This document shows, one piece after another, positions 14,136 through 62,664 of a stretch of 64,000 nucleotides of DNA (positions are counted from its first letter, which is position 1; every line of letters begins with the position of its first letter). Both the position numbers and the translations under genes were made by a program. The notes beneath the pieces were generated by a model that saw nothing but the letters and a program-made list of their open reading frames with translations, was not told the DNA's origin and made no database searches. Source of the stretch: a virus. The DNA is taken from IMG/VR virus record IMGVR_UViG_3300035698_017588, positions 1 through 64,000 of that record; one strand, 5' to 3'.

Positions 14136-15272
14136 TTACGTATTAATCTCTCGAACTTTCATGGTAGTGTAATTGATCTCGCAAGTAACGGTCTTGTGTT
14201 TAGGACCATTCCGATTCTTAGCAATAAAGAAACGAAAACGTGGAGGACTTGATTCACGTTCCTCGGGAGTCTGGTTGATGGTGATAATATAGTCCATTGA
14301 GAACTGCTTGGCATAAGACTCTGCCGCGTCCTTCAACGTAATAGCTTCGCCAGTAGATCCCGCTGACCTATTCGTCTGCGTAGCCGTGAATACTAACACA
14401 TTTTCATTTTTAGCAAAGCCCCGAACCTCATTAGCAACAGCCTTTTGCCGACTGTAATCATCACGATTAGCGTACTTATTCCGACTCACCATCAAATCGA
14501 GATAATCGATAATAACAACGTCCGGATACCAACCATGAGACCGACGAAGGTTATCTAGCAAGTGATACAAATGGTCAACACTACATTGCTCAGGCGGCAA
14601 TTCAGAAATAAAAATCTTGCCATCATAAGTCGTCTTCAACGAATTAATCTTGCTCGTTATTTCATCCTGGCGACTGACTAATTTGTCCATCGGGATATCT
14701 TCACCAAGAACGCCAAGACACCGCATCGAAGTCTTAATATAATCAAGCTCAAACGTCACCAACAAAACATCCTGCCCAACCCTACCACCAGGACCCGGCC
14801 CCTGCCAAGACGTAATGGCATTATTACACAGAACAATCGAATTATGGCTAACCAAACCAGAAGTATAATACCAATGCGGATCAGATATGGTAATATCATA
14901 AAAATCTTCCTCGGGACCATCATCAATATAATAGCCACCAGGAGAATAGTAATTTCCATGCCGTAGATGTTCACAATGGAAACCAACTAAAACATCATTA
15001 GTACAATCTATTTGATCAGCACGGGCTGCCGTTAATTTTCCATCCCTTATGATCTGTAAAACATGCCCAGGATCACAAGAAAATTTATCAGCTCGAAGAG
15101 AGAAAATCTTAGAAGGCCCGCGTTTCATGAACGCAAAATCAAGAACTTTAGTCCAGCCAGATGGGGTCAACACATGGTGAATAGCATCAGGATTCTCTTC
15201 TAAATCATCTTTAATGATTGATAATGGAACTTCTTGAAGTCTATTCGTCGGTTTAATTGATCTAATTTTCAT
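14136..15272 (-). CDS. Replicative DNA helicase DnaB/gp41, C-terminal piece preceded by C-intein
   Basis: 378 residues. Residues 1-144 are the C-terminal half of a split intein ending in YYTSGLVSHN. The +1 Ser (145) then starts the extein SIVLCNNAITSW, the rest of the RecA-fold helicase after Walker A. The Walker B region is VVIIDYLDLMVSRN, followed by VLVFTATQTNRSAGS and the arginine-finger zone MDYIITINQ. Joined by trans-splicing to the N-piece at 16297-17157, it would restore the P-loop GTNVGK-S. DnaB-type helicases unwind DNA at the fork. The intervening endonuclease gene and a 59-residue gene separate the two pieces. The start at 15272 overlaps the 59-residue gene in ATGA. Confidence 0.88.
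   Translation of the reverse strand: MKIRSIKPTNRLQEVPLSIIKDDLEENPDAIHHVLTPSGWTKVLDFAFMKRGPSKIFSLRADKFSCDPGHVLQIIRDGKLTAARADQIDCTNDVLVGFHCEHLRHGNYYSPGGYYIDDGPEEDFYDITISDPHWYYTSGLVSHNSIVLCNNAITSWQGPGPGGRVGQDVLLVTFELDYIKTSMRCLGVLGEDIPMDKLVSRQDEITSKINSLKTTYDGKIFISELPPEQCSVDHLYHLLDNLRRSHGWYPDVVIIDYLDLMVSRNKYANRDDYSRQKAVANEVRGFAKNENVLVFTATQTNRSAGSTGEAITLKDAAESYAKQFSMDYIITINQTPEERESSPPRFRFFIAKNRNGPKHKTVTCEINYTTMKVREINT
14841..15272 (-). mobile_element. Split intein, C-terminal half (DnaB P-loop site)
   Basis: Residues 1-144 of the C-piece. The last block reads DFYDITISDPHWYYTSGLVSHN-like with the terminal Asn and +1 Ser needed for splicing. It is longer than usual C-inteins (about 35-50 residues). 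It also contains a segment with TPSGW and RADKFSCDPGHVLQI that looks like the first half of a HINT fold (intein blocks A/B). The N-half already has a block-B-like stretch, so the two halves together appear to carry redundant material. Confidence 0.75.
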
Positions 15273-15448
15273 CTGTTTTCAAATTCCATGTGATTTTCAA
15301 TGGCCGATTGTACAGTTTCACCCACAGAAACCACTTGCGGCTTTCGTTTTTCATGAGGACGAAAACCTTCTGCTTTATATTCATGCTGAAGACGCAAATC
15401 AAGCCATTTGGCGTCCTCTAAATCAAGTTCGATTATTATTTTCGACAT
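15269..15448 (-). CDS. 59-residue ORF between the homing endonuclease and the DnaB C-piece
   Basis: Starts MSKIIIELDLEDAKWLDLRL and ends SAIENHMEFENR. It overlaps the endonuclease gene end by 26 bases and the DnaB C-piece start in an ATGA overlap, so all three could be read by coupled translation. The first 20 residues look like a strand plus amphipathic helix. Function unknown. It could be a small phage protein trapped in the fracture or a helper of the mobile element. Confidence 0.6.
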   Translation of the reverse strand: MSKIIIELDLEDAKWLDLRLQHEYKAEGFRPHEKRKPQVVSVGETVQSAIENHMEFENR

Positions 15449-16343
15449 CTTCTATAATCCCTTTGAGTCTTAAAAAAGCTTCCTTTGGTGTTTTCATAAT
15501 CTCTGATTCCCAGAACACGTGAACAACATATCCAAGAGCTTCGAGATCGTTTTTCCTAATCTCATCTTTTTCTTTTTTGTTCATTCGTCCGTCATTACAA
15601 ACAAAACGATCTGAATGCCAATAATCACCATAAACCTCTATTACAATATTATCAAATAAACAAAAATCTACACAATACTTGTCTATCAGAAACTCGAATT
15701 CAAAATCGAATTCGAAAGAATGCAACATGCCCCACATAGCAAGTTCTGGTTTAGTGACAATTTTAGATTGTAGAGATCTAGTTCTGGCAGACACTCTTTT
15801 AGTCTTATCAGTATGACCTCTTCCATGAAAACCATTATTAGAACCACATGACTTTTTACTTAATTCCTTTTTTATTTCCGATTTTGGTTTGCCGGTTCTT
15901 TTTTGAATCGATTTAATAGAAGCCGGGTTTCTAGCCCCAGAATTACATTCTCTCAACAACTTTTTCAATTCATCGGTAGAATACCTCTCAGCAATCCCTT
16001 TCTGACGAGAGCTTAAAGCGATAATAGCATCATCAACTTCCATCCCCTGATATAGATAGAACTCTATACATGATGGATTTCGGAGTCTGTTGATGCTACT
16101 ACATTCTCTAGCAAAACAAGAATAAGCAAAATCCCTTCTGTGAAGGTTGACATCTCGGCCGCAACCACAACAACATTTTGGGACTTGAAAATAATCTTTC
16201 AAATAATCCCCAAAATCCCCACCACGCTCAGAATTGCGTCTCTTAATACCATGTACATCATGTAAGTGTGTCATGAGCTTATTCGGATGAGATCCGTCAC
16301 ACTTCCAATCGCATATCTGACAATTCCAAATCCCAGGAATCAT
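15423..16343 (-). CDS. Free-standing homing endonuclease (Vsr/EDxHD type) inside the fractured DnaB gene
   Basis: About 306 residues from ATG 16343 (MIPGIWNCQICDWKCDGSHP); longer starts at 16370 or 16472 are possible. The N-terminus has zinc-finger-like units (CQICDWKC...HLHDVHGI; CCCGCGRDVNLHRR...CFARECSS) for DNA recognition. The C-terminal 110 residues form a Vsr-like nuclease: KPELAMWGML, YCVDFCLFDNIVIEVYGDYW, HSDRF, then LGYVVHVFWESEI. This matches the endonuclease family described with fractured genes and split inteins (Dassa and colleagues, 2009). It lies exactly between the two intein halves and is AT-rich, as expected of the element that broke the gene. Confidence 0.82.
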   Translation of the reverse strand: MIPGIWNCQICDWKCDGSHPNKLMTHLHDVHGIKRRNSERGGDFGDYLKDYFQVPKCCCGCGRDVNLHRRDFAYSCFARECSSINRLRNPSCIEFYLYQGMEVDDAIIALSSRQKGIAERYSTDELKKLLRECNSGARNPASIKSIQKRTGKPKSEIKKELSKKSCGSNNGFHGRGHTDKTKRVSARTRSLQSKIVTKPELAMWGMLHSFEFDFEFEFLIDKYCVDFCLFDNIVIEVYGDYWHSDRFVCNDGRMNKKEKDEIRKNDLEALGYVVHVFWESEIMKTPKEAFLRLKGIIEDVENNNRT

Positions 16344-17157
16344 CGACAGATGGTAAATCTCCGATCTCATCCTCTTCGGTAAGATCTTTAACTTTAACTG
16401 CTCCGCGTGCAGTTTGAACTTTTCTAAATCCTGCAAGTTGTCGAACCGTACCATCTTCCATCTCCAATTCATAAAGCTGTGAATTTTCTTTATTTACAAT
16501 CGAAGTTGATAAAGAATGGCATTTACCAACATTTGTTCCCGCAAGCCAACAAACAACCTCTTTAGGTCCTGGACCGCCATTATTGAGGAATTTATCAAGA
16601 CTTCGGAAACCAGAGGTACGATGCTCAATAGCAGACGGGCTGAACAATAATTCATAATTATCCAGAAGCCACAAACCCTGGACCTGCAGATCAGTAATCC
16701 GATTAGCCTCTTCGACGATCTTCTCGATCTCATCAAAATCCCCGTTCTGATAAGCAAGCATCGCCTCGTCTGAATAGATCAAGCCGAAAGCCCTCTTCCG
16801 AGCCCATTCGACCATCTTCTCTTTCAGAATGGGAACATCACGCGGGTTCGATTTCTGATCGATAAGTTCCAGAACCGATTCATATGGGTCATCCTCAGTC
16901 ATATGCTGAAGGATGAAATCACGAAGCAGGCCCCGAGTCGGGACGATTTGATGCTTCTCAATGTGATTAAGAATGATAGCGATTACGTATCGTGCTTCAA
17001 CCGCTTCGAAAAGATCTGGCGTTAAGAATCGTCCGATCGAAAGAAATAGATCCGGGTGATCAAGGGCAAGGGGGATCAGAGCCTTCTCAACGTACTTGCC
17101 AAATTCGCTCTCAGCCTCGTTATTTTGAGTGAGAAATTTGGAAGTATCTTCGTACAT
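16297..17157 (-). CDS. Replicative DNA helicase DnaB/gp41, N-terminal piece followed by N-intein
   Basis: About 286 residues from ATG 17157 (MYEDTSKFLTQNNEAESEFG). The N-terminal helical domain is followed by the linker and FRSLDKFLNNGGPGPKEV, the usual lead-in of DnaB. The chain then reads VCWLAGTNVGK, the P-loop up to its Lys, where Cys 213 begins the N-intein (CHSLSTSIVNKENSQ). The N-intein ends with the protein. The helicase cannot bind ATP unless the missing Ser and C-terminal part are joined by trans-splicing with the gene at 14136-15272. The upstream 118-residue gene stops 1 base before the start. Confidence 0.87.
   Translation of the reverse strand: MYEDTSKFLTQNNEAESEFGKYVEKALIPLALDHPDLFLSIGRFLTPDLFEAVEARYVIAIILNHIEKHQIVPTRGLLRDFILQHMTEDDPYESVLELIDQKSNPRDVPILKEKMVEWARKRAFGLIYSDEAMLAYQNGDFDEIEKIVEEANRITDLQVQGLWLLDNYELLFSPSAIEHRTSGFRSLDKFLNNGGPGPKEVVCWLAGTNVGKCHSLSTSIVNKENSQLYELEMEDGTVRQLAGFRKVQTARGAVKVKDLTEEDEIGDLPSVDDSWDLELSDMRLEV
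16300..16521 (-). mobile_element. Split intein, N-terminal half (DnaB P-loop site)
   Basis: 74 residues from the catalytic Cys to the stop. Recognised by Cys1 directly after GTNVGK and by the block-B-like stretch LYELEMEDGTVRQLAGFRKV with a GAVKVKDL turn after it. The segment that normally lies between Cys1 and block B (a VxTPxG...GD turn) is nearly absent, so the half is short. Pairs with 14841-15272. Confidence 0.75.
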
Positions 17158-17158
17158 A

Positions 17159-17515
17159 TTATGGTCCTGAAGTGCCGCTCGTACCTGATGTAAGATCAAC
17201 GCAATGCGTAGCGATCCTATTTTGAATTGCAGCTAGTTGATTTTGATGATACTGTTCTGCCAACGCAAGAGCATCACAGATCTGAATAAATTCGCATTCT
17301 TCGAAAGTGATAATTGCCCCATTTGTCAGACTCCGACGCTCCCCATAATGGGGAGCATGCGTTGGCAAATTGGGCCTAATTAGAATGGTATAAACCCACC
17401 CATTATTTCCACGGGTAACACCCGCAATCGTATGAGCTTCTAAGAATCCGACTGAGGCGGATTCTCGGAGGTAGACGGTTGTTCCTCGTTCGTAGAGGGG
17501 AGCGTCGTAGGGCAT
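17159..17515 (-). CDS. Hypothetical protein (118 aa)
   Basis: Starts MPYDAPLYERGTTVYLRESA, with an SH3-like beta pattern (GWVYTILIRPN) followed by a helical segment (CDALALAEQYHQNQLAAIQN) and a Thr/Ser/Gly tail (TSGTSGTSGP). No motif assigned. It sits between RecA and the DnaB N-piece; the start lies inside the 3' end of the recA gene (75-base overlap), which makes the start uncertain. Confidence 0.5.
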   Translation of the reverse strand: MPYDAPLYERGTTVYLRESASVGFLEAHTIAGVTRGNNGWVYTILIRPNLPTHAPHYGERRSLTNGAIITFEECEFIQICDALALAEQYHQNQLAAIQNRIATHCVDLTSGTSGTSGP

Positions 17516-19656
17516 GAGTCTGTTCCAGTGATTACATGATTGTAAATTCTCTGAAATAGATTTGGGTCTGTCGCCAATGTAGCAGCAGAAGCCGCCATAC
17601 CATTGCCAAGAGATTCCCCATCATATTTGATATGACTCCCAGAGACAGTAACAATTTTCTTATCTTTCGCTACCGTCAACAAGCTGGAATATGGGTCGAC
17701 ACCATAAATTGGGTATTCAGGCAGACCAAACGTGATATTGAATTCAGCGACAGTAAAAGGCGGTGCGATCTTATTCTTCTTGAACGTCACCTTAGTAGTA
17801 TTACCAACAACAGTATCACCAACCTTAAAAGAACCCGTCCGACGAATGTCCATTCGAATAGACGAATAGAATTTCAAGGCTCGACCACCAGGAGTTGTCT
17901 CAGGAGAGTTATGCACAACAACACCAACTGGATTACCACCAGCCATGTAATTATGATTCCCTTCTACAGAAATATCATACTTTCCCTTCTGCTTCATTTG
18001 TCGTTTGCTAGCTGGTCGAATATCAACAATCTCAACACCGCAAGATCTGAAAGCCCTTTTTCGACTAAGATTTAATGTTTTGTAAAACCCGCGACGACAA
18101 ACAGGTAATTTTCTGTCCATACATTCTGGGACAAAGCAAGCGATCTTAGAAGCAATATTTTCGCTGATGTCCACGTCAAATGTGACTCTGCCACCACGAG
18201 ACATGTAGTGGAATAAGCCTAATTCATCAAGTGCTCGACTAATTTGATCAAGCTTCTCACCATCACCAGCGAATCGTTTGATAGATAATTGATAACGTTT
18301 ACGTTCGTAAACAGCATCATCCATCATCCAAATAGCAAAACCAAGCCATGAAAAATTGTCAAGCAAAATCATTGGGTCGCGATTTGGATAATCACGCTTA
18401 ACTTCAGCAAATTCAGGATACTCTATTGAAGAATAAAAGACGCCAGAATTACATTTATAATCAGCCATCTTAAGACCAGCAGCAGAAAGAATTTCAGCCT
18501 TCCAATTCATATAATGAGTATCAATATTATCTCGAATCTTCAGAGCAGCTCCTAATCTCTTCTTATTTTTGGAGATATGAGAGTCACCGGACAACACTCC
18601 AGTAAGGAATTGACCAAGAGTGCCATTTGGGTGACCGTCTTCATCAAACACAAAACAATCTTGTTTTGTGGTAAGATGATCACCCACACTCAAAGAATCC
18701 ATTTGAACGAATTCATTATCACACAATACTTCGTGACTTGGAGTCACAGTGATTTGCATGGTACCGTTTTTCGTACCAGGACCACGCAATGAAACGTGAA
18801 GATAGTCGTCAGATATTTCTACATCACCATTGTGGTGCCAGTCGACGATTTTCTTTGGTTCGAATTCCTTGGTCTCGATGTTGTAAGACCATACCTCACC
18901 TTCAACCTTTTCATCATAAACTTGACGAATCGGCAATACTCTGCCATCTACAAATGGGATTAAAGTGTCGGCATGAAGGCAGCCGAACATGACGCCGATC
19001 TTCTCTCGGATCTGATTAACACACAATAGAGTGCATTTACTGGCTGAAACAGGGCCATTGATTTTAGCAAAGGCACGACTGTTCATTCGAGCATTAGCAC
19101 CAATTTGGTTGTTACCCTCAAGAGTGCCTTCGATTTCGTCTTTCGTGATCATGGCAGCGATAGAGTCGATGATCACCAATTCTACCTTGCCGGATTTGAC
19201 AAGCAATTCGACAATATCGTACGCTTGCTCACCATTACTCGGCTGAGAGAAGATCAATTCTTCGACGTTCAAACCGATCGCCGAAGCCCAAGTGGGATCA
19301 AAAGCGTGCTCGACGTCGACAAAAGCCACACGTCCTGGTCGTTGACCAGTCACTTTGCCAGAGTCGTCTTTGACGTCAAAAAGAGTGTTCTGAAATGCTG
19401 CACCGATTTTGAGGCACGTGGTAGTCTTTCCGCTCGACTCAGGCCCATAGATCTCGATGATCCTGCCTCTCGGGATTCCGCCGCATCCGATCGCCTCGTC
19501 GATACCGACGACACCGGTTGGAACGGAATCTACTGGGACAATAGCGTTGTCTCCAGCGAATCGTACGGCTTCGACACCATACTTAGATATGAAGTGTGCT
19601 CTCAGCTCAGTCAGATCTTCAATTGCTGTGCTCTTCGCTTTAACTTTCGCCATCAT
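17440..19656 (-). CDS. recA: RecA/UvsX recombinase interrupted by a LAGLIDADG intein
   Basis: About 738 residues from ATG 19656, which has AAGGTGAGA just upstream. Walker A is GPESSGKT (71-78), followed by FVDVEHAFD and Walker B LVIIDSIAAM. DNA-binding loop 1 region residues follow (NQIGANARM). The intein occupies residues 226-583, between CVNQIREKIGVMFG and SPETTPGGRALKFYSS, i.e. just before loop 2. The C-terminus has a variable tail, acidic and Ser/Pro-rich. RecA forms filaments on single strands for strand exchange; in T4-like phages this also starts replication. The spliced product of about 380 residues is close to bacterial RecA, closer in motif wording to RecA than to T4 UvsX. Confidence 0.93.
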   Translation of the reverse strand: MMAKVKAKSTAIEDLTELRAHFISKYGVEAVRFAGDNAIVPVDSVPTGVVGIDEAIGCGGIPRGRIIEIYGPESSGKTTTCLKIGAAFQNTLFDVKDDSGKVTGQRPGRVAFVDVEHAFDPTWASAIGLNVEELIFSQPSNGEQAYDIVELLVKSGKVELVIIDSIAAMITKDEIEGTLEGNNQIGANARMNSRAFAKINGPVSASKCTLLCVNQIREKIGVMFGCLHADTLIPFVDGRVLPIRQVYDEKVEGEVWSYNIETKEFEPKKIVDWHHNGDVEISDDYLHVSLRGPGTKNGTMQITVTPSHEVLCDNEFVQMDSLSVGDHLTTKQDCFVFDEDGHPNGTLGQFLTGVLSGDSHISKNKKRLGAALKIRDNIDTHYMNWKAEILSAAGLKMADYKCNSGVFYSSIEYPEFAEVKRDYPNRDPMILLDNFSWLGFAIWMMDDAVYERKRYQLSIKRFAGDGEKLDQISRALDELGLFHYMSRGGRVTFDVDISENIASKIACFVPECMDRKLPVCRRGFYKTLNLSRKRAFRSCGVEIVDIRPASKRQMKQKGKYDISVEGNHNYMAGGNPVGVVVHNSPETTPGGRALKFYSSIRMDIRRTGSFKVGDTVVGNTTKVTFKKNKIAPPFTVAEFNITFGLPEYPIYGVDPYSSLLTVAKDKKIVTVSGSHIKYDGESLGNGMAASAATLATDPNLFQRIYNHVITGTDSCPTTLPSTNEEQPSTSENPPQSDS
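17908..18981 (-). mobile_element. Contiguous intein with LAGLIDADG endonuclease in RecA
   Basis: 358 residues, from Cys in GCLHADTLIPFVDGR to the last Asn in VGVVVHN, with +1 Ser. Splicing blocks: ITVTPSHEVLC (block B), then KYDISVEGNHNYMAGG (block F) and VVHN (block G). Between them are two LAGLIDADG-like helices, LGQFLTGVLSGDSHI and WLGFAIWMMDDAVY, each with the acidic residue. The intein should therefore still encode a homing enzyme. Confidence 0.88.
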
Positions 19657-19891
19657 TCTCACCTTGGTTATCAGAATTAATAGCCGGTTTCACTTCCGTA
19701 GTGAACTGGCCTACTACCTTTACGGCAGATGGTTTAACACGTAGAATACGGGCACCGCGTGACAACACAAGGAATTCGTCGTGGCTAGATACAACAGACC
19801 ATCGGCCACTTGAATCAAACCCACCTTTCTGCCCAAGAACACCAGTGGTATCAATAATAATTACAATGTCGAAAGCACGGATATTCTTCAT
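19640..19891 (-). CDS. Hypothetical protein (83 aa)
   Basis: Starts MKNIRAFDIVIIIDTTGVLG, a small beta-rich protein with an acidic C-terminus (INSDNQGENDGES). Its end overlaps the recA start by 17 bases. It is the first gene of the long leftward unit; the 44 bases to the divergent gene at 19936 must hold both upstream regions. I see no strong ribosome-binding site before it. Family not recognised. Confidence 0.5.
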   Translation of the reverse strand: MKNIRAFDIVIIIDTTGVLGQKGGFDSSGRWSVVSSHDEFLVLSRGARILRVKPSAVKVVGQFTTEVKPAINSDNQGENDGES

Positions 19892-23866: not shown

Positions 23867-24321
23867 TATGATTCTGTCTCCCAAGAGCTTGCACCCGGAG
23901 GCACAGGCTTCGGTTCGAACTCGGACTTGAATTGCGGGTGTATCAAAAACGAGAGATAATTTGGGTCGGTCGCCACCGCTTTTGTTTCCAAATCGACCTC
24001 AACAGCGGTGACAAACACCAAAAAAGCCGGACCATTCACAATTGGTTCGCCAGATATCTCACAATCTGCTCGGCCTCTGCGTTTTTTCTGCTGAAGTATA
24101 ACATTCGTACCAATGACTTTCTGGGCGAATTTGCCATGACAATTGCCACACAAATCAAGAGATCCTATAGCAGCTTTGCGATTTGCTTTAAGAACGGAAG
24201 GCCCCATACCATTGATGATATTGACACCACAGAGATCGTAACTGTAGTATCTGAACTTCGATTTCAATTTCATGTGACAAAGATCACACGATATTCCATC
24301 TTTAGTCGTAAGCTGGGCCAT
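23866..24321 (-). CDS. Hypothetical zinc-finger protein (151 aa)
   Basis: Starts MAQLTTKDGISCDLCHMKLK. A first CxxC is followed by LDLCGNCHGKFAQ, giving a four-cysteine ribbon of about 50 residues, then a beta-rich region. It directly follows the Pol III C-terminal gene with a 1-base overlap, so it is transcribed with the replicase pieces. Function unknown. Confidence 0.5.
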   Translation of the reverse strand: MAQLTTKDGISCDLCHMKLKSKFRYYSYDLCGVNIINGMGPSVLKANRKAAIGSLDLCGNCHGKFAQKVIGTNVILQQKKRRGRADCEISGEPIVNGPAFLVFVTAVEVDLETKAVATDPNYLSFLIHPQFKSEFEPKPVPPGASSWETES

Positions 24322-25520
24322 TAATCTTTCCGATTCAACGGGATTATCACATTATTACGCAACATCGTAAAGGACTTGCGTTTCGGCTGATAAGTCACCG
24401 GAATCATACAAGCAACACCCTTCCTCAGGACCGATGGGTTAATCTTCTCTAGATTGTCGCTCCAGATGAAAACTGTCGTGGTTTCACGACCATCAGTAAC
24501 ATTCAATCGACAATAAGGATCACCCTTCTGAGTGCTACCTCTATGTGCTTCATTGATAATGCATTCGAGGAAAGCAGCCTGCTGAGTCATGAAATCCTCA
24601 ATACAACCCTGGATATCCCGATTAGCCCGAGTATCATACATCAAAAGCGGATTGGATAGATGATAACCCAAATACTCTTCTTCATAATCAATGATTTCCG
24701 AGATCTTATAATCGTCGAACAATTCATTGAAAGTCTTCAAATCGTGCTTATCTTCTGGCATCCATTCAGTCACCCGCTTAGGATAATTAGCTTCCTTCTT
24801 GCGAGGGAATAAATCACGATAGGCGTCAACCTGACGATCACGTTCATTCTCGATCTCGGAAGGCGACCAACCAACATGCTCAATCAGAGTCGGATACAAC
24901 TCACGACGTTCAGCAGTCTTCATCTTCTTATACTTATAAGCATAATAATGCCACAAAGCCCGGCGATTCTCATGCTCCGGAACCTTCTCGAAAGCCCCAA
25001 GACGAATCAAACGCTCAACAAGAGTCTTACCAGCATTCGTACGTTCGATAAAGTCATCAAGCGATTCAAAAGGCCCCTCGACCTCAGTGATGGCACGATC
25101 TGATTCACCGATGCCCTTAATCGAAAGCATACCGACCGAAACAACATTGCCAATCACGCTAAAATTAGGGCTCAGATTGTTCACATCAACAGGGATGATC
25201 TCAAACTTCTCGTAGCCCTCTTTCGGGGGTCGTCCGAGCTTGGTGATCTCAGTAGGGTGCCAACCTTCTGCACGGGCCACGGAGATATAACGGGGAGCCT
25301 TCTTTGGGTCACACGTACTCAGAACCGACGCGATCCACTCTGGGAAGAAGTGAGCCTTGAACCATGTGCAGCGATACGCGATAATAGCAGCGTACGCAAC
25401 TCCGTGACTATTTTTGTGAATAACGGAACTATTGCCGGTCAAATAGTTGTGGTGTTTTGATTGCATCTCTGGCGAATAAGTTCTTTTAACACCCAAAGAA
25501 GTCAACGATTTAATTTTCAT
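24321..25520 (-). CDS. dnaE: DNA polymerase III alpha subunit, C-terminal piece with C-intein
   Basis: 399 residues. Residues 1-37 are a C-intein (MKIKSLTSLGVKRTYSPEMQ to the terminal Asn); the +1 Ser 38 starts SHGVAYAAIIAYRCTWFKAH, the well-conserved fingers segment of bacterial DnaE. Further on, MLSIKGIGESDRAI is the helix-hairpin-helix, and the C-terminal OB fold appears near VFIWSDNLEKINPSVLRKG. The spliced chain would have palm from 26997-29003, fingers and C-terminal DNA-binding domains. A tau-binding tail is not obvious. Start overlaps the endonuclease stop (ATGA). Confidence 0.9.
   Translation of the reverse strand: MKIKSLTSLGVKRTYSPEMQSKHHNYLTGNSSVIHKNSHGVAYAAIIAYRCTWFKAHFFPEWIASVLSTCDPKKAPRYISVARAEGWHPTEITKLGRPPKEGYEKFEIIPVDVNNLSPNFSVIGNVVSVGMLSIKGIGESDRAITEVEGPFESLDDFIERTNAGKTLVERLIRLGAFEKVPEHENRRALWHYYAYKYKKMKTAERRELYPTLIEHVGWSPSEIENERDRQVDAYRDLFPRKKEANYPKRVTEWMPEDKHDLKTFNELFDDYKISEIIDYEEEYLGYHLSNPLLMYDTRANRDIQGCIEDFMTQQAAFLECIINEAHRGSTQKGDPYCRLNVTDGRETTTVFIWSDNLEKINPSVLRKGVACMIPVTYQPKRKSFTMLRNNVIIPLNRKD
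25410..25520 (-). mobile_element. Split intein, C-terminal half (Pol III alpha)
   Basis: 37 residues ending SSVIHKN before +1 Ser. Length and layout match known short C-inteins of the DnaE/gp41 split type. Partner half at 27000-27320. The SKHHNYLTGNSS stretch is block F. Confidence 0.85.
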
Positions 25521-27046
25521 ATTTTCAACCCATATTTCAAATTACCAGAATCCCACAATCTACGATAGCCGTTTGCGAACATATTTTCTGACTCAGTGAG
25601 ATCAGGATCAAAATGATCTAGTTTCTCAGAAAGTTTATGCTTTTGAAATGACCTTCTGTTATACAATTTATTAGATCTCCAATATCTATAACCAGGATTC
25701 GTGATACCATTAAATGTCATCCCAAATTTAGAATAACACGTATCTTGAGTAGTAAAAGATCGATCGACAAATGTTTCGATACAAGTCGGTTTGTCGAATT
25801 TAATAAAGCTTTTCATGAGTTTGGAAAAACCGCCAATAACGGTATGTCCAATAATATTTGCAAATCTGGAGATGGAATAATTTACATCATTTCTGGTTAG
25901 AGATAAAACAGAAACAATTTTACCATCATTCTCTAGAGCATACGCCACATGCGGCATAACTCCACAATGATAATGATTATCATCAAAAAATCTTTTAGCC
26001 TGCAAATTGTCCATCTTGATAATAGAGCATTTTCTTGCGTAGATCCTAGATGATAAACCCAAAGAATTTTTTATCATCGAATCTGCTACGATTCTTCGTT
26101 TAGAATAATCAAGATCAACAAACTGCAACAACTTAAAACCTCTTCTATAAGCCATGGCAGATTTCATAGAATGATAGTTTCTGTGATATGTCGATTCTTT
26201 AATATTGAATGAATGAAAATAAGCACCATGATATTCTATACCAACATTAGCATCAGGTAGCCAGATATCCAATTCCAAACCATTTAAAATAGATCGGTTA
26301 GATCTTTCTATTTTACCATCATAAACAGAAGCGATCCAATCAGCCAGTTCATTCTCTGGAATAGAAGTCAATTTCTCAGTGTTGCATTTAGGACAGCCAT
26401 TTTTCTGTCTAACATGCCCAGTTGGTCTAGTTTCAAAATCACCGTGTTTAGGACATACGACTATCACTTTTGTTCGCTGATTTATATATATCGTTTTTGA
26501 ATAATCATATTTATTACCATGGGTCGCAACACACCTTCCGATGAATTCTTCCTGGTTTAAAGTTCGTGGGTCATCTGATGGACTATCATAATAATCGGAC
26601 CTAGCTTTAGTCACTCTGTCGACATAATCTTGATCTGTGCGAAATTTTTCCTTGATCGCCTTTGACATTTTCTCCTTGAAGTCTTCAGAAACAGAAAGCC
26701 TTTCATGATTGATCACCATTTTCTCACGATAAGAAGGATCTTTCCATCTTTCTTTGGCTGTTTCAGATCTTTTTGAAAAACTGGAAGACTTCGACGCAAC
26801 AATAGACTGTCTCTCTTTAAAAGAGTCCAAAGAACGAAAACATTTCGGACAATGATAACAATTAACGTGTTTAGATTGATTATTAACCTTCCTAACATGA
26901 TCATAAAAATTCGTATCTGAATTCTCATTGCAAGAATAACACGACACAATAACTCTATGCTTCAGCTTTGGTTTAACATGACCTGGATCGACCAATCTAA
27001 GGCGTGGTGATCTCCAATCCTTTGGCAACAATTTCTCTAACTTCAT
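25517..27046 (-). CDS. Homing endonuclease (zinc-ribbon repeats plus Vsr/EDxHD nuclease) inside the fractured Pol III gene
   Basis: About 509 residues from ATG 27046; ATG 27058 is also possible. N-terminal cysteine pairs (SCYSCNEN; YHCPKCFRSL) are followed by basic helical units (ETAKERWKDPSYREKM) of the NUMOD type. A DUF723-like unit follows (EFIGRCVATHGNKYDYSKTI ... CPKHGDFETRP ... GCPKCNTEKL). The nuclease core reads NGLELDIWLPDANVGIEYHG and AYFHSFN, with the catalytic Asp and Glu and the YxHS motif. The C-terminal 170 residues (FFDDNHYHCGVMPHVAYALE, ending MFANGYRRLWDSGNLKYGL) are nearly the same type as in the gene at 32507-33943. Its placement between intein halves marks it as the mobile gene of a fractured gene. 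Confidence 0.83.
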   Translation of the reverse strand: MKLEKLLPKDWRSPRLRLVDPGHVKPKLKHRVIVSCYSCNENSDTNFYDHVRKVNNQSKHVNCYHCPKCFRSLDSFKERQSIVASKSSSFSKRSETAKERWKDPSYREKMVINHERLSVSEDFKEKMSKAIKEKFRTDQDYVDRVTKARSDYYDSPSDDPRTLNQEEFIGRCVATHGNKYDYSKTIYINQRTKVIVVCPKHGDFETRPTGHVRQKNGCPKCNTEKLTSIPENELADWIASVYDGKIERSNRSILNGLELDIWLPDANVGIEYHGAYFHSFNIKESTYHRNYHSMKSAMAYRRGFKLLQFVDLDYSKRRIVADSMIKNSLGLSSRIYARKCSIIKMDNLQAKRFFDDNHYHCGVMPHVAYALENDGKIVSVLSLTRNDVNYSISRFANIIGHTVIGGFSKLMKSFIKFDKPTCIETFVDRSFTTQDTCYSKFGMTFNGITNPGYRYWRSNKLYNRRSFQKHKLSEKLDHFDPDLTESENMFANGYRRLWDSGNLKYGLKI

Positions 27047-29003
27047 GATACAGGCCATCCTCACATAAAAATTTATGGTCTAAAGTCACGTCTTCGCAAG
27101 AACCGTCTTCGAACTCTACTCTAAAGATTTCTTGTTCACCAGAATAACTAATATCCACACAATGATCTATGAACAAATCTTGTCCATCATATGACCAAAG
27201 ACTTGGTAATTGATTATGTTCAAGAAAATCACTTGTCACGGGGGGAGAGTCACACCATTCTTGAATAGTCATCTCTAATCCAGTAACAACACATTTCAAT
27301 TTTGTGTCGTATGACAAACATTTATTAAAAGCGTAGCGACCGAAAGTCTCAAGCTTTCCCCAATATTCCTCAGCAAATTGTGGGCCAAGAGTCTTTGACG
27401 CACCACGAATCCATTTTTCTTTGATAGCTGGGAGCTTGTGGACCTTCTTCTTCGCAATGTCCTTCCGACTCATCTGAGCCTCGGTGGCCGAAAAACCACC
27501 CAGACGTTGCCAAAGAGCCGTCAACTGTTCCTGATAAGTACAAACACCATAAGTCTTCTCAAGGATCTCGAACATAATCGGGTTGCGAGCCTTAAGCTCG
27601 CCCTTCCACGATTGAGTTGGATCATCACGATTAGCCAAAACAGTAGGAATCGACTGCATCGGGCCAGGGTGCCCGAGAGCATTCAACAATGTCAACTGGT
27701 GCGGATCACTGACACCCTCACCCTCAGATGCGTCAGCCAAAATCGACTTGGCCAATGACGTATCGAACTGGAAAATCGTGTCCGTCCGTTGGGTGTTGAT
27801 GAGCTTATAAGTCGCTTTATCATCATAGCGAATCTCGTGCTCGTTCCCATCCAAGTCATAAAACTTGCCACAATAACCAGCCTCGGGATCGACATCATCA
27901 AGACCCGAAAGCTCATAGCAACCGCCATATCCCTCGATCTCTTGTGGAATACCAAAAGTAATCCCGCGATTCGCCTTGATCATATAACAACAGTTATAAA
28001 TGTACTCCAAGGTCTTAAGACCAAGAATGTCCCATTTAATATATCCGCATTTGGATAACTGTTGATTCCCGCCCTCAGACCACATCGAAACCCAAGGGCC
28101 ATCAACCTTATTCTTACCAAGCGGGATGTTGCCAAGAAGCTTGGTACTGGCGATGATTAGAGCACCCGCATGCATGCCCATGTTGCGAATTCGACCGACC
28201 ATTTTAGCCGCATAGCCAATAGCAGCCGGGAAACGACGAGCAAAATCAGCTAAAGGCTCGTTCTCTTTCAACAGACGTTCGAGAGTCGGAGCGTCAGTTA
28301 GTTCACTACCACATTTCGGACATTGATAACGAGCGTGGCGATTGCCACACTCACGCATTTTGCCGCTCTCGTCTGTGATGTTGCCTTTACAAGTAGCCAG
28401 ACCACCGGGTTTGAGGTTATCAAGATCATCGGGGAGATTGGAAGTCAGCTTTTCAGCTTCGTTCCTATGCATCAATCCTAAAGCGGTTGCTGCGTCTTGG
28501 ATCGCCATCTTGAATTTGTATGTCTGCCATGTGCCGACACTACACACTTGAAGATCGCCCAATCCGTTCCCATCACCATAACGTCTGATGGCGTAGTCTT
28601 TGATCGGATCGCGGGCCGCTGGGAGACAGTCAATGTCAATATCTGGGACATCATTGTCTTTTTGGAAGTCATGGGGTGGACTACCATGCTTCTCGACGTA
28701 TGCGGCGACGTCGTCGTAGCTTGTGCTGATTAGGCATTCCGAGCCTCGTTGAGACATGGGATCGACGGGATCTGTGAGCATCCCGAGAACCCATGGTATT
28801 AGCAGATTGTTCGGATTCGAGTCGAATTTGGCTTCGGTGTTGAGATACTCGATCCAAAGACCATTTAAACCTTGCTTGTTCAGTTCGTACAACTCGAACT
28901 CAACACGATCCTTGTATTGTTCTGGTAAGTGGTCGGCTGCTTGCTTTACAGACTCTTCGAACTCTTCCCAGGTTTCAATCTTGTTTAGCAGCGTTGTACT
29001 CAT
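26997..29003 (-). CDS. dnaE: DNA polymerase III alpha subunit, palm piece with N-intein
   Basis: About 668 residues from ATG 29003 (MSTTLLNKIETWEEFEESVK). The catalytic aspartates are at VPDIDIDC (120-125). Palm and fingers segments follow, with a Cys-rich insert (LATCKGNITDES ... YQCPKCGSELTDAP) that may bind zinc. Later DTIFQFDTSLAKSIL and VCTYQEQLTALWQRLGGFS are typical DnaE fingers motifs. The chain reaches FGRYAFNK, where the N-intein begins. The upstream zinc-finger gene overlaps the start by 29 bases. The first 100 residues resemble a worn second copy of the segment that ends the PHP piece. With the PHP piece and the C-piece it would form a complete replicase. Confidence 0.9.
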   Translation of the reverse strand: MSTTLLNKIETWEEFEESVKQAADHLPEQYKDRVEFELYELNKQGLNGLWIEYLNTEAKFDSNPNNLLIPWVLGMLTDPVDPMSQRGSECLISTSYDDVAAYVEKHGSPPHDFQKDNDVPDIDIDCLPAARDPIKDYAIRRYGDGNGLGDLQVCSVGTWQTYKFKMAIQDAATALGLMHRNEAEKLTSNLPDDLDNLKPGGLATCKGNITDESGKMRECGNRHARYQCPKCGSELTDAPTLERLLKENEPLADFARRFPAAIGYAAKMVGRIRNMGMHAGALIIASTKLLGNIPLGKNKVDGPWVSMWSEGGNQQLSKCGYIKWDILGLKTLEYIYNCCYMIKANRGITFGIPQEIEGYGGCYELSGLDDVDPEAGYCGKFYDLDGNEHEIRYDDKATYKLINTQRTDTIFQFDTSLAKSILADASEGEGVSDPHQLTLLNALGHPGPMQSIPTVLANRDDPTQSWKGELKARNPIMFEILEKTYGVCTYQEQLTALWQRLGGFSATEAQMSRKDIAKKKVHKLPAIKEKWIRGASKTLGPQFAEEYWGKLETFGRYAFNKCLSYDTKLKCVVTGLEMTIQEWCDSPPVTSDFLEHNQLPSLWSYDGQDLFIDHCVDISYSGEQEIFRVEFEDGSCEDVTLDHKFLCEDGLYHEVREIVAKGLEITTP
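27000..27320 (-). mobile_element. Split intein, N-terminal half (Pol III alpha)
   Basis: 107 residues, CLSYDTKLKCVVTGLEMTIQ to the stop. Close in style to the N-intein of cyanobacterial DnaE (CLSYxT start; EQEIFRVEFEDGSCEDVTLD as block B with DHKFL). The insertion site is K before S in FNK-SHG, three residues downstream of the cyanobacterial site (Y before CFNK). Confidence 0.87.
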
Positions 29004-29934
29004 CCAGTTTTTCCGGGTGCTTTTGTTTGACGTGATTGGTAACACCGAAGGCTTTCTTCATCGTTTTGTCACAGTAAGGACAGGAAAAACCTTCAGTCGG
29101 TTTCTCTATCACTTCTGGTACTTCCTCTTCGGAACCACGGGGATCAGCGGTTGGTGCTTCCGTGGTGGTATCCGTCTCGGAGTCGTCTTCAAGGAATTGT
29201 GGTGGCACATCATTGTCGACCACTAAATCTTCAACGTCAACGGCGGCATCGGATGATTTGGTGAAGTTCCGGAGCGAGACTGGAAGCAACACCCATGGGC
29301 CTTCTGCGACGATGTGTTTTCCCTGTATTGTAAACGAGCTGTAATACAAGAGCAGATTATGATCGTTCGATTGGGAAACGATCTCTTGCAGATGCTTCTT
29401 AGAGAAAGCCTTGCGGAATCCGACGATTTTGGATGGTGGTTCGACTAAGGCGAAAACGAATTTTTCATAGTCGAGGTCATTTAGTGATTTGCCGATATCG
29501 ACAGCGACATTCCCGCTGTCATCTTGACTGTAGAACACAGAAGGGGGCAGGTTTTTCACAATGATTTCATCCACAATAGCACGTTCGTCAGAAGCAGCCA
29601 AAAGAGACGATTCAGCTGATAATAATTTCTCAATCACCAAGTCTGGTGCACCGTATTCAACACGCTTGAATTTGTCACGCCACTCACCAAGCACCTTCTC
29701 AGTACAAGATGACTCATCTGGGCTGACCAATATCAATTCGTGTCGGAAATTACCTATTGTGGCAGCTAAAGCCAATAATTCACCGCGACCGGCAGACGGG
29801 CAAATCTCAGCAGAACCAAACCAACGTGCCATGTAAAGCATGGAGTAGTCTCCATCTTTCATCTCACGTTGGACTTGGAGAGAGCAATAAAGTTGTCGGT
29901 CAATTATTGAGTCGTCGTACTGAATTCTGATCAT
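28975..29934 (-). CDS. Hypothetical protein with C-terminal C2H2 zinc finger, between Pol III pieces
   Basis: About 319 residues from ATG 29934 (MIRIQYDDSIIDRQLYCSLQ). The first 250 residues are an unassigned alpha/beta protein (AATIGNFRHELILVSPDESS). An acidic/Thr linker follows (DDSETDTTTEAPTADPRGSE), then a single classical finger FSCPYCDKTMKKAFGVTNHV with KQKH. The start overlaps the stop of the PHP piece in ATGA, and the end overlaps the palm piece start, so it is made in step with both polymerase pieces. A structural or loading role for the split replicase is possible; inference only. Confidence 0.6.
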   Translation of the reverse strand: MIRIQYDDSIIDRQLYCSLQVQREMKDGDYSMLYMARWFGSAEICPSAGRGELLALAATIGNFRHELILVSPDESSCTEKVLGEWRDKFKRVEYGAPDLVIEKLLSAESSLLAASDERAIVDEIIVKNLPPSVFYSQDDSGNVAVDIGKSLNDLDYEKFVFALVEPPSKIVGFRKAFSKKHLQEIVSQSNDHNLLLYYSSFTIQGKHIVAEGPWVLLPVSLRNFTKSSDAAVDVEDLVVDNDVPPQFLEDDSETDTTTEAPTADPRGSEEEVPEVIEKPTEGFSCPYCDKTMKKAFGVTNHVKQKHPEKLDEYNAAKQD

Positions 29935-32483
29935 GTTGATGAAACCGGTTTTGGCATGGATGCATTGAGACGGTATCCACCACGGGCTTCTGCAAGGAAC
30001 CGGTCGAATGACAGGTCCCATTTCAGAGGATCGATCGAGGATAACCCTAGTAAGTAACAAACCAAACTACCACCACCACTACCCCGTGGACCAAAGATCC
30101 ATCCCTGCGACTTTCCATACATAATCAGATCCTGAGTAATCAAGAAATAACTAGCAAAGCCTTTGGAAATAAAACGAGTCAGCTCGATAGTAGCTTGTTG
30201 GACGTAAGTGACCTCACGACCATCGATCACGAACTTGCGATCGACCTTATCAAGACCTTTCATTCTCAACGCTTTCATCACAATCTCAGTCAGCTTCGTA
30301 GCATCATCAGTGATACGCGGAAACTTTGGATTGCTATCCAACTCAATGTAATCACACTTATCAACAATCTCAAGAGTAGCATCACACATAGCCTCGAAAG
30401 CACTAGATGACACCTTCTCACAGTAGCGGTTCGACGCATAATAAGACCAAAGCTCAGCCCTGGTCTTAAAATATTGCTCGCTACTATTCACATGGAACAA
30501 ATCAGGAGAATCAACAGTCGTCCCCTGAGCCGTAGCCATCATGATCTTCTGGATCTCGAAGTCCTTACGCTGAATGTAATGAGAATTGCCAGATGACAGA
30601 CCGACCAAGAAGGAATGATCATCTTCGACTTGTATACACCACACTTCTTTTAAATCAGATTTAACGACTTTAAATGGATTTTTAATCCAAACTCCATGGT
30701 GATCTTGATGATGTTTAGATCTAACTTTAGAAGCGTCAAAATACTCGCCCAACCCAATCGCAAAGATACCAGCTTTACCGATAGAACCAGTATAACCCTC
30801 CCTATGTCTTGTTGATATCCTACGACCGTCTTTTTTCTTGATTATAGCATCTTTAGCGGGTCGTAGCTGCGGAGTAACCCCGACACCAAGACAAGCAAAA
30901 GCGTGCATTAAATCAGTGAAAAGTTGGAAGGATGTAGTAAAAAAACTGCGACGAGAAATACAACCATCACCTTCAACGTAACCTCGTATTAAAACCGACA
31001 ACTGACGAGATGATAACTTAGTCCAAAATTGCGGTAATTTCTTAGCATAAACAGAAAATCCACAACAATTAGCGAACAATTTGGAAAAACCAGAAGAACA
31101 GATTCTAATTGATCTGCCTTTATCAGATACTTTAGAGATATCACTTGGAGAAAAACCAAATTGGGTAAAATATTCTTGTATCCGACTGAAACGATCAAGT
31201 TCCAAATCATTACCAGCAAATCCGAGCCTGTAGTCCTTATCGGTATGACCTTCAGCAATGTAAATGCCGAACAACCATAATAATTCATCAGTCAATTCTA
31301 TGACATTTGGTATCGGATTTATCGATTTGCCGCCAAATGGGTAAATCAACCCATCCCTTACTTTACATCTAGGGTCGTCAATATAATCACTAATAGTCAA
31401 TTCTTTTAAATCGTCATCAGGAAGAATGGGAGCGGCTACGTGTATAAAATCATCGGGACTAATATCACGAATCTCTTTCATTCCAATCAAACCGGTTTCA
31501 TGGCATTTAGAATACAATCTATGATTTTCAGTGCATACCATCACTTGGCTACCCAGAAAACCATATAATTCTTCTCTATCTCTAACCTTTCTCTTACCAA
31601 TACACTGTACTTCTCTAAGACGATTTTTATGTGTCCAAACATACTCACCAGGGCGAATGTCGCACAGCCTCTTAGAACCATTGATAGTCTGAACAGTAAC
31701 CTCAGGATTCCAACAATCATTCGCAAGAACAGTCTTCAATCCAAAATAATCTGCCAAGCCTACTAGATCCCAAAAGACCTCGTAGTCATCCTCAATCCCT
31801 GGCATTTGCAATTCGATATAGTAATCCTCACCGAATGCATCCTTAAACTTCTTTACCCACGTCGCAGCAGCTTGAAAACGCTCCTTACGAGTAGTCTCAA
31901 CAATGAGATTATCCTCTTTGTCTCGAAGCTCCTTATACCGAAGCTCATGAGCCACGGGACCATTGAGGCACCCGCTGAGAATAATCAAGCCTTCCCGGTG
32001 TTTACAAAGCTTGTCGAACCAAATACGGTTCATTTTACGACTACCAGCCCCGAAGAGCCCATCATCATAAGCTTCCGTGGTCAATTTGAGCAAGTTATGT
32101 AAACCCTGCTCTGTCTTGCAGAGCACGGTAAGGTGACGATTACGATTGATTCTAGTGGCGAGTGCGAAATTCTCAGCACGCCAAGCCTGACTCTTGAGCT
32201 TTATGCCTTGTTCGACCAACGACTGTCTTTGGGGTTCATAATCATTAAAATAAATCTCGCAGCCAAATATACTTTTCAGACCGTGTTTTTTGAATTCAAA
32301 ATGAAAATCTGGAACAGATCCCATATGACCATGTTCAGTGATGGCCATGCCGGGCCATCCATTATCGACACATTTTTCGGCGTATTCTTCGATAGTCGCT
32401 ACACCATCAAGTGCCGAATAAATCGAATGACAATGAAGGTGGGCAAATCCCGAAGATCCGGTATATTCGCTAGGTTCAGGCAT
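29931..32483 (-). CDS. dnaE: DNA polymerase III alpha subunit, PHP-domain piece with contiguous intein
   Basis: About 850 residues from ATG 32483 (MPEPSEYTGSSGFAHLHCHS). The PHP metal motifs are kept: HLHCHSIYS, AITEHGHMGS, IFGCEIYF, LSGCLNGP, and the final Asn-Asp-x-His, which is interrupted by an intein (residues 257-633) after VLAND. After the intein, SHYIQRKDFEIQK continues the domain. The C-terminus runs into the start of the palm (GFASYFLITQDLIMYGKSQG, PRGSGGGSLVCYLLG) and stops at VSST, shortly before the catalytic aspartates. The upstream in-frame start at 32525 would overlap the endonuclease gene on the other strand and adds a hydrophobic stretch foreign to the family. Confidence 0.9.
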   Translation of the reverse strand: MPEPSEYTGSSGFAHLHCHSIYSALDGVATIEEYAEKCVDNGWPGMAITEHGHMGSVPDFHFEFKKHGLKSIFGCEIYFNDYEPQRQSLVEQGIKLKSQAWRAENFALATRINRNRHLTVLCKTEQGLHNLLKLTTEAYDDGLFGAGSRKMNRIWFDKLCKHREGLIILSGCLNGPVAHELRYKELRDKEDNLIVETTRKERFQAAATWVKKFKDAFGEDYYIELQMPGIEDDYEVFWDLVGLADYFGLKTVLANDCWNPEVTVQTINGSKRLCDIRPGEYVWTHKNRLREVQCIGKRKVRDREELYGFLGSQVMVCTENHRLYSKCHETGLIGMKEIRDISPDDFIHVAAPILPDDDLKELTISDYIDDPRCKVRDGLIYPFGGKSINPIPNVIELTDELLWLFGIYIAEGHTDKDYRLGFAGNDLELDRFSRIQEYFTQFGFSPSDISKVSDKGRSIRICSSGFSKLFANCCGFSVYAKKLPQFWTKLSSRQLSVLIRGYVEGDGCISRRSFFTTSFQLFTDLMHAFACLGVGVTPQLRPAKDAIIKKKDGRRISTRHREGYTGSIGKAGIFAIGLGEYFDASKVRSKHHQDHHGVWIKNPFKVVKSDLKEVWCIQVEDDHSFLVGLSSGNSHYIQRKDFEIQKIMMATAQGTTVDSPDLFHVNSSEQYFKTRAELWSYYASNRYCEKVSSSAFEAMCDATLEIVDKCDYIELDSNPKFPRITDDATKLTEIVMKALRMKGLDKVDRKFVIDGREVTYVQQATIELTRFISKGFASYFLITQDLIMYGKSQGWIFGPRGSGGGSLVCYLLGLSSIDPLKWDLSFDRFLAEARGGYRLNASMPKPVSST
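30585..31715 (-). mobile_element. Contiguous intein with LAGLIDADG endonuclease in the Pol III PHP domain
   Basis: 377 residues from CWNPEVTVQTINGSKRLCDI to LSSGN, with +1 Ser. Block B is QVMVCTENHRLYSK, block F is WCIQVEDDHSFLVGLSSGN. LAGLIDADG-type helices are LLWLFGIYIAEGHTD and LSVLIRGYVEGDGCIS, each with the catalytic acid. It appears intact and therefore likely active. Confidence 0.87.
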
Positions 32484-32506
32484 CGAAAATCCAAAGAGTT
32501 GAAGTA

Positions 32507-33943
32507 ATGGCAAGAAGAAGAACACAAGAAGAATTTATTGAACAAAGCTTAAAGAAACATGGCGAAAAATATGATTATAACAAATCTGATTATATAAATG
32601 AATATACTAAAATAATAATAATATGCCGAGAGCATGGCGAATTTGAGCAAAAACCGTCAATCCACTTAAAGGGACATGGGTGCAGAAAATGCCGATATGA
32701 AAAATTAGCAGCCAATATGGGTGGTGGATTAACCGGTTTTATTAAGAAAGCTTCTAAAATTCATGATAATAAATACGATTATTCAAAAGTTGAATATTCG
32801 ACATCACAGAAGAAAGTGGTTATCATATGTCCAGAACATGGTGAATTCGAACAATTACCGTGTAATCATATTAATAAGTGTGCTGGTTGTTTGAAGTGTT
32901 CGACCGCTTACCAACCCACAAATAAAGAATTTATAAACAAACTTGTTTATAAATTCGGAGAAAGGCATGATTATTCTAAAACTATATATACATCATCGAA
33001 AGACAGAATTACTGTAATATGTCCAGAGCATGGTGAATTTCAAATTAGAGCTGAATCTTATGTAAGATCTGGATCTTGCCCTAGATGCTGCTCGTCTAAC
33101 GAACAATTGGTGATCCACGATTTTGTTACCAGCTTCGAACCAACGGCAAAATCGAATGATAGGGAAGCCATACGCCCTTTAGAATTAGATGTCTATATTC
33201 CAAGCAAAAAACTTGGAATAGAATATAATGGAAATTATTGGCATTCATTTAACAGAAATGAAACAACAGAAGAGAGAAAGAGGCACCAAACAAAATTCGA
33301 GAAATGCGAAAAATCTGGTATAAGATTATTTCAAATAAACACCACGGAATATGAAGACAAATTCGAAATAGTCCAATCTATGATCAGACACAGATTAGGA
33401 TTATCAAAAAAGGTCGGTGCCAGAAAAACAATGGTCAAAGAAATATCTAACAAAGAAGCGGGAATTTTTTTAGACCGCTGTCATATTAGTGGCCACAGAA
33501 ATGCATCTAAAAATTATGGATTGATTCTTGACGACAAATTGATCGCCACAACCACATTTAGTAAATATAAAATAGGTTGGGAAATAATAAGATACGCCAA
33601 CGAGTTAAACATAACCGTGGTAGGCGGTTTTTCTAGATTACTAAAATCATTTATAATCGACAATCGACCGAAAACAATCATGACGTTTGCTGATCTAAGA
33701 TATGGAAGTGGAAATGTTTATAAAGAATCTGGCTTCGAGTTAGTGAAACGAACGAAACCAGGATATGTCTATCTTGACTCTAATGCAAGATATATGGGGT
33801 CTAGGATAAAATTCCAAAAACATAAACTTGAAAAAATTTTAGAAGTCTTTCATACAGAACTAACGGAATCTGAAAACATGTTTCTCAACGGTTATAGAAG
33901 AATGTGGGATGCTGGGCATAATCAGTTTATTTTGAATCTCTAA
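32507..33943 (+). CDS. Free-standing homing endonuclease with DUF723-like repeats and Vsr/EDxHD nuclease
   Basis: 478 residues. Three repeats of about 60-65 residues share the pattern FIEQSLKKHGEKYDYNKSDY, then IICREHGEFEQKPSIHLKGH with a CRKC pair: the DUF723-type zinc-ribbon unit used for DNA binding. The nuclease core is EQLVIHDFV, then LELDVYIPSKKLGIEYNGN followed by YWHSFN, with the EDxHD acidic residues. The C-terminal domain (ISGHRNASKNYGLILDDKLI; TESENMFLNGYRRMWDAGHN) matches that of the gene at 25517-27046. Strongly AT-rich and antisense to the operon in which it sits, 24 bases from the Pol III PHP start codon. Confidence 0.83.
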   Translation: MARRRTQEEFIEQSLKKHGEKYDYNKSDYINEYTKIIIICREHGEFEQKPSIHLKGHGCRKCRYEKLAANMGGGLTGFIKKASKIHDNKYDYSKVEYSTSQKKVVIICPEHGEFEQLPCNHINKCAGCLKCSTAYQPTNKEFINKLVYKFGERHDYSKTIYTSSKDRITVICPEHGEFQIRAESYVRSGSCPRCCSSNEQLVIHDFVTSFEPTAKSNDREAIRPLELDVYIPSKKLGIEYNGNYWHSFNRNETTEERKRHQTKFEKCEKSGIRLFQINTTEYEDKFEIVQSMIRHRLGLSKKVGARKTMVKEISNKEAGIFLDRCHISGHRNASKNYGLILDDKLIATTTFSKYKIGWEIIRYANELNITVVGGFSRLLKSFIIDNRPKTIMTFADLRYGSGNVYKESGFELVKRTKPGYVYLDSNARYMGSRIKFQKHKLEKILEVFHTELTESENMFLNGYRRMWDAGHNQFILNL

Positions 33944-62335: not shown

Positions 62336-62393
62336 GTTACCAAATCGACACAAAGATAGGACGCCCCTTTTACTACTAACGGAGTAACAGTCG

Positions 62394-62582
62394 ATGCTAG
62401 TGCTAAGTCGCAAGAAGAATGAAGAGATCATTATCGGGGAAGGTGAGAACCAAGTCCGACTAATGATCGTGGAGATAAGGGGTGACAAAGTTCGCCTCGG
62501 AATCGACGCAGATCGAAGCGTACCAGTACACCGTAAAGAAGTGTACGACGCCATCGAACGAGAGAAAAACGGCGGAAAATAA
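62394..62582 (+). CDS. csrA: CsrA-like RNA-binding translational regulator
   Basis: 62 residues: MLVLSRKKNEEIIIGEGENQ is the CsrA N-terminus (MLxLxRKxxExIxIG), followed by VRLMIVEIRGDKVRLGIDAD and VPVHRKEVYDAIEREKNGG. The RNA-binding residues at the start (Arg6 region) and near VHRKEV are kept. CsrA dimers bind GGA in 5' leaders and usually block translation. In a phage it may shift host metabolism or time its own genes. It is followed by a clear terminator and starts after cggag. Confidence 0.92.
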   Translation: MLVLSRKKNEEIIIGEGENQVRLMIVEIRGDKVRLGIDADRSVPVHRKEVYDAIEREKNGGK

Positions 62583-62609
62583 CCGCCGAAACATTCTGTT
62601 AATCACAAG

Positions 62610-62642: not shown

Positions 62643-62664
62643 ATATATTAACAGGAGTAGAAAA

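Follow-up and report, generated by a model that had tools for sequence, protein, structure and literature searches.

The stretch of viral DNA analysed here (the window) comprises 64,000 nucleotides, positions 1 to 64,000 of IMGVR_UViG_3300035698_017588, an IMG/VR virus record of 95,001 bases, and encodes a DnaE-type Pol III alpha that is spread across three genes on the minus strand. The second and third of these genes carry the two pieces of a split intein at the ends that face each other, at the motif FNK/SH (slashes mark insertion points here and below), and a free-standing endonuclease gene lies between them. The features of the locus are, by position:

24321..25409, minus strand: third DnaE gene, C-extein (end of the fingers, HhH and OB); HHH_6; phrog_405 profile positions 793-1044
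25410..25520, minus strand: C-intein of 37 aa, with block F TYSPEM..HHNY and a terminal Asn before Ser+1; aligned with cyanobacterial and phage C-inteins
25517..27046, minus strand: free-standing homing endonuclease gene (phrog_559/3339), its reading frame open from a GTG at 27064
27000..27320, minus strand: N-intein of 107 aa, with C1 (CLSYDT) and block B TxxH (VTLDHKF), directly after ...RYAFNK
26997..29003, minus strand: second DnaE gene, N-extein (rest of the palm and most of the fingers) with the N-intein at its C-terminus; Pfam DNA_pol3_alpha and DNA_pol3_finger; phrog_405 profile positions 441-793
29931..32525, minus strand: first DnaE gene, PHP and start of the palm; context outside the element, with its own cis LAGLIDADG intein (LAND/C...GN/SHYIQ)

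The second DnaE gene matches the phrog_405 DNA polymerase profile up to position 793 and the third from 793 on, which makes them the two halves of a single protein. The longest open reading frame (ORF) of the second gene (26997-29045, minus strand) opens at a GTG at 29045, but the ATG at 29003 is the likely start, which is also where the gene of the related viral record L005 (IMGVR_UViG_3300009149_000014) begins. The third gene, with its C-intein included, occupies the ORF 24321-25520 (minus strand). A different break separates the first gene from the second: it falls within the palm, immediately ahead of the catalytic PDIDID (28975-32525, minus strand), with another gene between the parts and no intein at the break, and it is also present in L005 (4470-12143). 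Since DnaE is already divided into two genes at this intein-free position, the polymerase is made up of the products of three.

The second gene ends ...RYAFNK/CLSYDT...EITTP followed by a stop, and the third begins MKIKSL...VIHKN/SHGVAYA, with the C-intein abutting SHGVAYA directly. An N-intein of 107 residues, a C-intein of 37 residues and an endonuclease gene overlapping both, as described in an earlier sequence-only reading of this DNA, can all be read at the locus. The intein has the class 1 catalytic set (Cys1, block B TLDH, the block F His of HHN, Asn37 and Ser+1). Its N-terminal piece matches the Ssp and Npu DnaE split inteins with phmmer E-values of 1e-7 to 1e-5, and its best matches among solved structures are all cyanobacterial DnaE inteins. 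L005, with exteins ~80% identical to those of the window, provides a natural empty allele: one uninterrupted gene of 1385 aa reads ...RYAFNRSHGVAYAAI... and spans the site intact as YAFN(R)/SHGVAYA, which fixes the FNK/C junction. L005 has inteins elsewhere, in the PHP domain and at the YQEQ region. The element of the window also occurs in two more records, both of them near-identical strains. Given the empty allele, these strains and distant phages with the same three-part layout, the arrangement is not due to chance, and the original proposal of a split intein in Pol III alpha with its own endonuclease gene is borne out by anatomy, empty allele and relatives. The proposal that the site differs from the cyanobacterial one also holds (FNK/SH with Ser+1 versus Y/CFNK with Cys+1), but the distance between the two sites is four residues (C, F, N and K) and not three.

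The endonuclease ORF overlaps the second DnaE gene by 68 nt from the GTG at 27064, or by 50 nt from the ATG at 27046, and the third by 4 nt (ATGA). The ATG is probably the true start, as homologues share the beginning M(K/R)LxKL..KDW. The family to which the enzyme belongs, phrog_559/3339, is annotated in phages as Hef-like homing endonuclease, and relatives are present in 839 phage records. An N-terminal Zn-finger-like region is followed by an EDxHD-type nuclease core and a C-terminal GNAT/Mom-like region. The core residues are E264, D266, E277 and H284 (numbered from the GTG), and the latter three are invariant across 18 endonuclease sequences. A profile of 18 relatives matches PDB 3r3p, a ‘mobile intron protein’ that we take to be the EDxHD enzyme I-Bth0305I, over the nuclease core (E 6e-6), and gives a weak GNAT fold match for the C-terminal part (E 0.4). 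Sister endonucleases are encoded elsewhere in the window (42670-44181, plus strand) and at locus L139 (3140-4489); in these the C-terminal part clearly matches the Mom family (PF25680, phrog_1384), giving a fusion of the Mom DNA-modification fold to an EDxHD-like nuclease.

Relatives of the element were collected by a scan with an alignment around FNK/C, a second scan with an intein alignment, and locus-by-locus reading. The third DnaE gene of the window, used alone as query, matched only near-identical strains, and the family surfaced only with the alignments around FNK/C. A single scan of genome contigs yielded a lone intein (L061) along with three bacterial DnaE genes whose site is empty, and a plasmid search returned one weak match. 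Eight phage lineages carry a split intein at FNK/SH. Four of them (the window, L067, L068 from the same record as L016, and L069) have an EDxHD-type endonuclease as in the window; between the window and L068, identity is ~40% for the N-intein, ~41% for the endonuclease and ~54% for the C-intein. A Mom-type endonuclease lies between the halves in L139 and a LAGLIDADG endonuclease accompanies the split in L072, while the endonuclease of L071 has decayed to a remnant (residues 40-232 with a stop, then 470-501). The remaining lineage has complete intein pieces on one 49.6-kb viral contig (IMGVR_UViG_3300045016_000121; DnaE halves at L070 2561-4393, plus strand, and L104 1489-2739), with the C-half ~3 kb away on the opposite strand, a layout for which misassembly is possible. 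No relative of the window endonuclease was found in this 49.6-kb record, nor a large candidate ORF beside the N-half. In one more lineage (L074, 2492-6168) the split intein lies two residues further on, at FNKSH/STAYG, and is accompanied by a LAGLIDADG endonuclease gene; this adds a third split-intein site to the motif. Continuous (cis) inteins occupy FNK/SH in Grayson, L092, L093, MT835601, L084, L091, L119, L061 and L076, and the site is empty in L005 and about sixteen further viral loci. All split members retain C1, the block B TxxH, the block F His, the terminal Asn and Ser+1, at ~40% identity. The block-F Asp, kept by cyanobacterial inteins, the cis inteins at FNK and most others, is replaced by Ser or Asn in all split inteins. 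Slightly before FNKSH, the DnaE of Salmonella phage SSU5 (L008, 766-4284) contains a stretch resembling an N-intein end, VEMEDGTTQRIHRAEHFKCEDGALRTVEEALEAG, perhaps an intein fossil.

A first intein tree had very long branches (NrdA and PHP inteins) and was rebuilt without these and with bacterial decoys. Two sequences, Npu and Ssp, represent the cyanobacterial clade; Npu was compared in full, and Ssp in part, with solved structures. NrdJ-1, IMPDH-1, Mtu RecA and Ssp DnaB had the role of decoys only. In all three datasets the split inteins come out as a single clade (98/96 and 97/90, both starred, and 91/85). The polymerases that bear them are scattered among empty and cis alleles in the extein tree, with 8 changes, at least 6 of them forced, a count no lower than with shuffled labels. 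Forcing the split-bearing hosts together costs 1098 log-likelihood units (p-AU 0.003, approximately unbiased (AU) test). One intein clade in hosts scattered among empty alleles argues that the element moves. The window, L067, L068 and L069 make up a starred intein group, whereas the host tree groups L070/L071 with L068 and the window and places L069 outside, and the intein and host datasets each reject the other's arrangement (p 0.03 and 0.009). The L072 polymerase lies far outside the phage group, while its intein is inside the split clade. The endonucleases of the window, L067, L068 and L069 group together (80/91), in line with putative movement as a unit, and L139 is a case of endonuclease exchange. 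Strain L004 and the window differ within the element at 2 of 1911 bases, compared with 69 of 2750 immediately upstream (p 8e-14) and 13 of 1579 downstream (p 0.001), a pattern consistent with recent copying of the element.

The combined results are best explained by a mobile ‘fractured gene’ element with a split intein at FNK/SH of phage DnaE, probably spread by its endonuclease; judged from the sequences, we put the probability of this explanation at roughly 85%. Observed in the sequences are the anatomy, the empty allele, a unit that has been conserved, hosts that are scattered while their inteins make up one clade, and endonucleases that have been exchanged or have decayed. Splicing activity, the cleavage site and homing are predicted, and the following course may be envisaged. 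Each intein half would be produced fused to its DnaE part, and the halves would then associate. Trans-splicing would start with attack by Cys1 to give a thioester, continue with transfer to Ser+1 and end when Asn37 cyclises. The spliced product would be one palm/finger/C-terminal chain, working with the chain that holds PHP and the start of the palm. In mixed infections the endonuclease would cut intein-free dnaE alleles, and the block of N-intein, endonuclease and C-intein would be copied in.

Some observations weigh against this explanation. The window intein has no penultimate His (a Lys precedes the terminal Asn), and Ser replaces the usual block-F Asp (TYSPEM), so its splicing activity is not to be taken for granted; both residues are usual but not essential in all inteins, and the Npu and Ssp DnaE inteins lack the penultimate His. 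The comparison with L004 covers one phage species, and repeated loss could in part explain the scattered occurrence. An old split intein passed on vertically and lost many times independently, with an endonuclease that is now mainly a passenger, would agree with the intein and endonuclease trees of the four EDxHD lineages, which run near the host order, and with the decay of the endonuclease in one lineage. The supported intein/host conflict over L069 and L070/L071, the position of the L072 polymerase and the near-zero divergence of the element between strains make such a history unlikely. It is less likely still that the two gene products work as separate subunits without splicing and that the intein pieces are inert remnants: non-covalent assembly is possible, as DnaE is already broken at PHP/palm without an intein, but the catalytic residues listed above have been kept in every member of a family diverged to ~40% identity. 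The mobile-element explanation is preferred, and the family points to joint spread of an element whose parts occupy three separate reading frames.

The sequence-only reading further suggested an independent invasion of the hot spot used in cyanobacteria; this part of its interpretation, which otherwise holds, is not demonstrated by the trees. The result that it named as counter-evidence, a window intein placed within the cyanobacterial DnaE clade, did not appear in any of the three datasets, each with Npu and Ssp as the cyanobacterial sequences. Although CLSYDT, GEQE and DHKF resemble Npu/Ssp DnaE, the window intein belongs to a phage clade from which the cyanobacterial inteins are absent, and uniting the latter with the four members of the window group is rejected (p 0.007), making transfer from the DnaE intein of a cyanobacterial host highly improbable. 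On the other hand, each of the three datasets has a best tree in which Npu/Ssp and the phage split-intein clade are sisters (90/84, 94/95 and 71/92; bootstrap 71-94), which makes common descent as open as independent invasion. The sister relation is insecure, as the data do not reject a grouping of cyanobacterial inteins and Mtu RecA (p 0.35), and the cyanobacteria are represented by two sequences only; support is lowest, at 71/92, in the dataset with more decoys. By these trees, the window family appears to be the closest relative found of the cyanobacterial DnaE split intein. For phage and cyanobacterial DnaE inteins that were split separately and share general intein ancestry only, a question of origin compatible with the mobile-element explanation, the chances seem about even. 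The four residues between the sites, Ser+1 versus Cys+1, the replacement of the block-F Asp in all phage members, the RecA grouping and the fall in support with more decoys favour separate splitting, whereas the sister position in every best tree and the exclusively cyanobacterial DnaE inteins among the best structure matches oppose it. More tentatively, and with greater doubt, the cyanobacterial DnaE split intein may have descended from a phage fractured-DnaE element of the FNK/SH family. The route would lead through loss of the endonuclease (seen in L071 and L070) and separation of the halves (seen in L070) to a site moved by a few residues, as already seen within the family between FNK/SH and FNKSH/S, and lastly to a dnaE of a cellular genome in which the intein became fixed. 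The cis inteins at exactly FNK/SH (the Grayson type, the L084/L091/L119 type, L061 and L076) make up several groups in the best trees, none of them within the split clade. This points to repeated invasion of the site by cis inteins, although the AU test does not reject a single clade that unites all FNK inteins (p 0.24). Independent hot-spot invasion is thus better supported for the phage cis inteins than for the window intein relative to cyanobacteria.

The window holds six inteins in about 50 kb, four cis and two split, and a second fractured replisome gene was correctly recognized in the sequence-only reading. This is a DnaB-like helicase (14136-17199, minus strand), broken in Walker A (GTNVGK/C ... 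HN/SIVL), with its halves flanking a DUF559 endonuclease gene at 15423-16472. The split is unusual: the N-intein lacks the block-B TxxH, and the 142-aa C-intein has a block-B-like segment of its own. The further cis inteins are:

17440-19662, minus strand: in RecA
29931-32525, minus strand: in the PHP domain of DnaE
39855-42695, plus strand: in a DinG-like helicase
about 62050-64000, plus strand: in a sugar-nucleotide epimerase

Outside the window, nrdA of Klebsiella phage phiKp_21 (L009, 641-4353) is also fractured by a split intein; the gene between the halves is hypothetical and probably HNH-like, and the parts that follow nrdA bear no annotation beyond hypothetical protein.

The conversion of a mobile intein into a permanently split gene, as in cyanobacterial DnaE, has so far been a matter of inference. 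The FNK/SH family offers candidate intermediate stages at one site: an intact unit, three kinds of endonuclease, a decayed endonuclease and halves on opposite strands. The origin of the cyanobacterial split intein thereby becomes testable with sequence data, and the family also offers new Ser+1 split inteins for protein ligation.

The window element has the features of a fractured gene, namely complementary intein pieces and an endonuclease in its own frame between them, in a phage DNA-synthesis enzyme. The fractured genes of Dassa and colleagues (2009, Nucleic Acids Res. 37:2560), from phage metagenomes and mainly of phage, reportedly combine a split intein with a free-standing endonuclease gene that is often Vsr-related. 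What they reportedly share with the window is a replication gene in two pieces, each with its part of a split intein, and an endonuclease gene lodged between them. The FNK/SH site in DnaE, the GNAT/Mom-like part of the endonuclease and the derivatives with an exchanged, decayed or missing endonuclease would set the window family apart. The element is of a known kind but belongs to a family that is new as far as could be tested; its new traits are the split clade at FNK/SH with a modified block F, the swapping of endonucleases of three kinds, the derivatives in which the endonuclease has decayed or the halves have separated, and the placement as sister to the cyanobacterial DnaE inteins. The DnaE split intein of Npu and Ssp, its nearest relative in the trees, shares the gene, the region and the canonical split point, but has the Y/C site, Cys+1 and the block-F Asp. 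In cyanobacteria the halves lie far apart with no endonuclease gene, and the L070/L104 layout, with halves on opposite strands and no endonuclease found, is of this type, if not misassembled. The nuclease core of the window endonuclease is common to 3r3p, which is intron-borne and whose solved fragment has neither treble-clef repeats nor a GNAT/Mom-like part. The cis inteins of Rhodococcus phage Grayson gp103 and gut phage MT835601 occupy an insertion site identical to that of the window, FNK/SH, but are continuous mini-inteins with a canonical block-F YDxE and stand outside the split clade.
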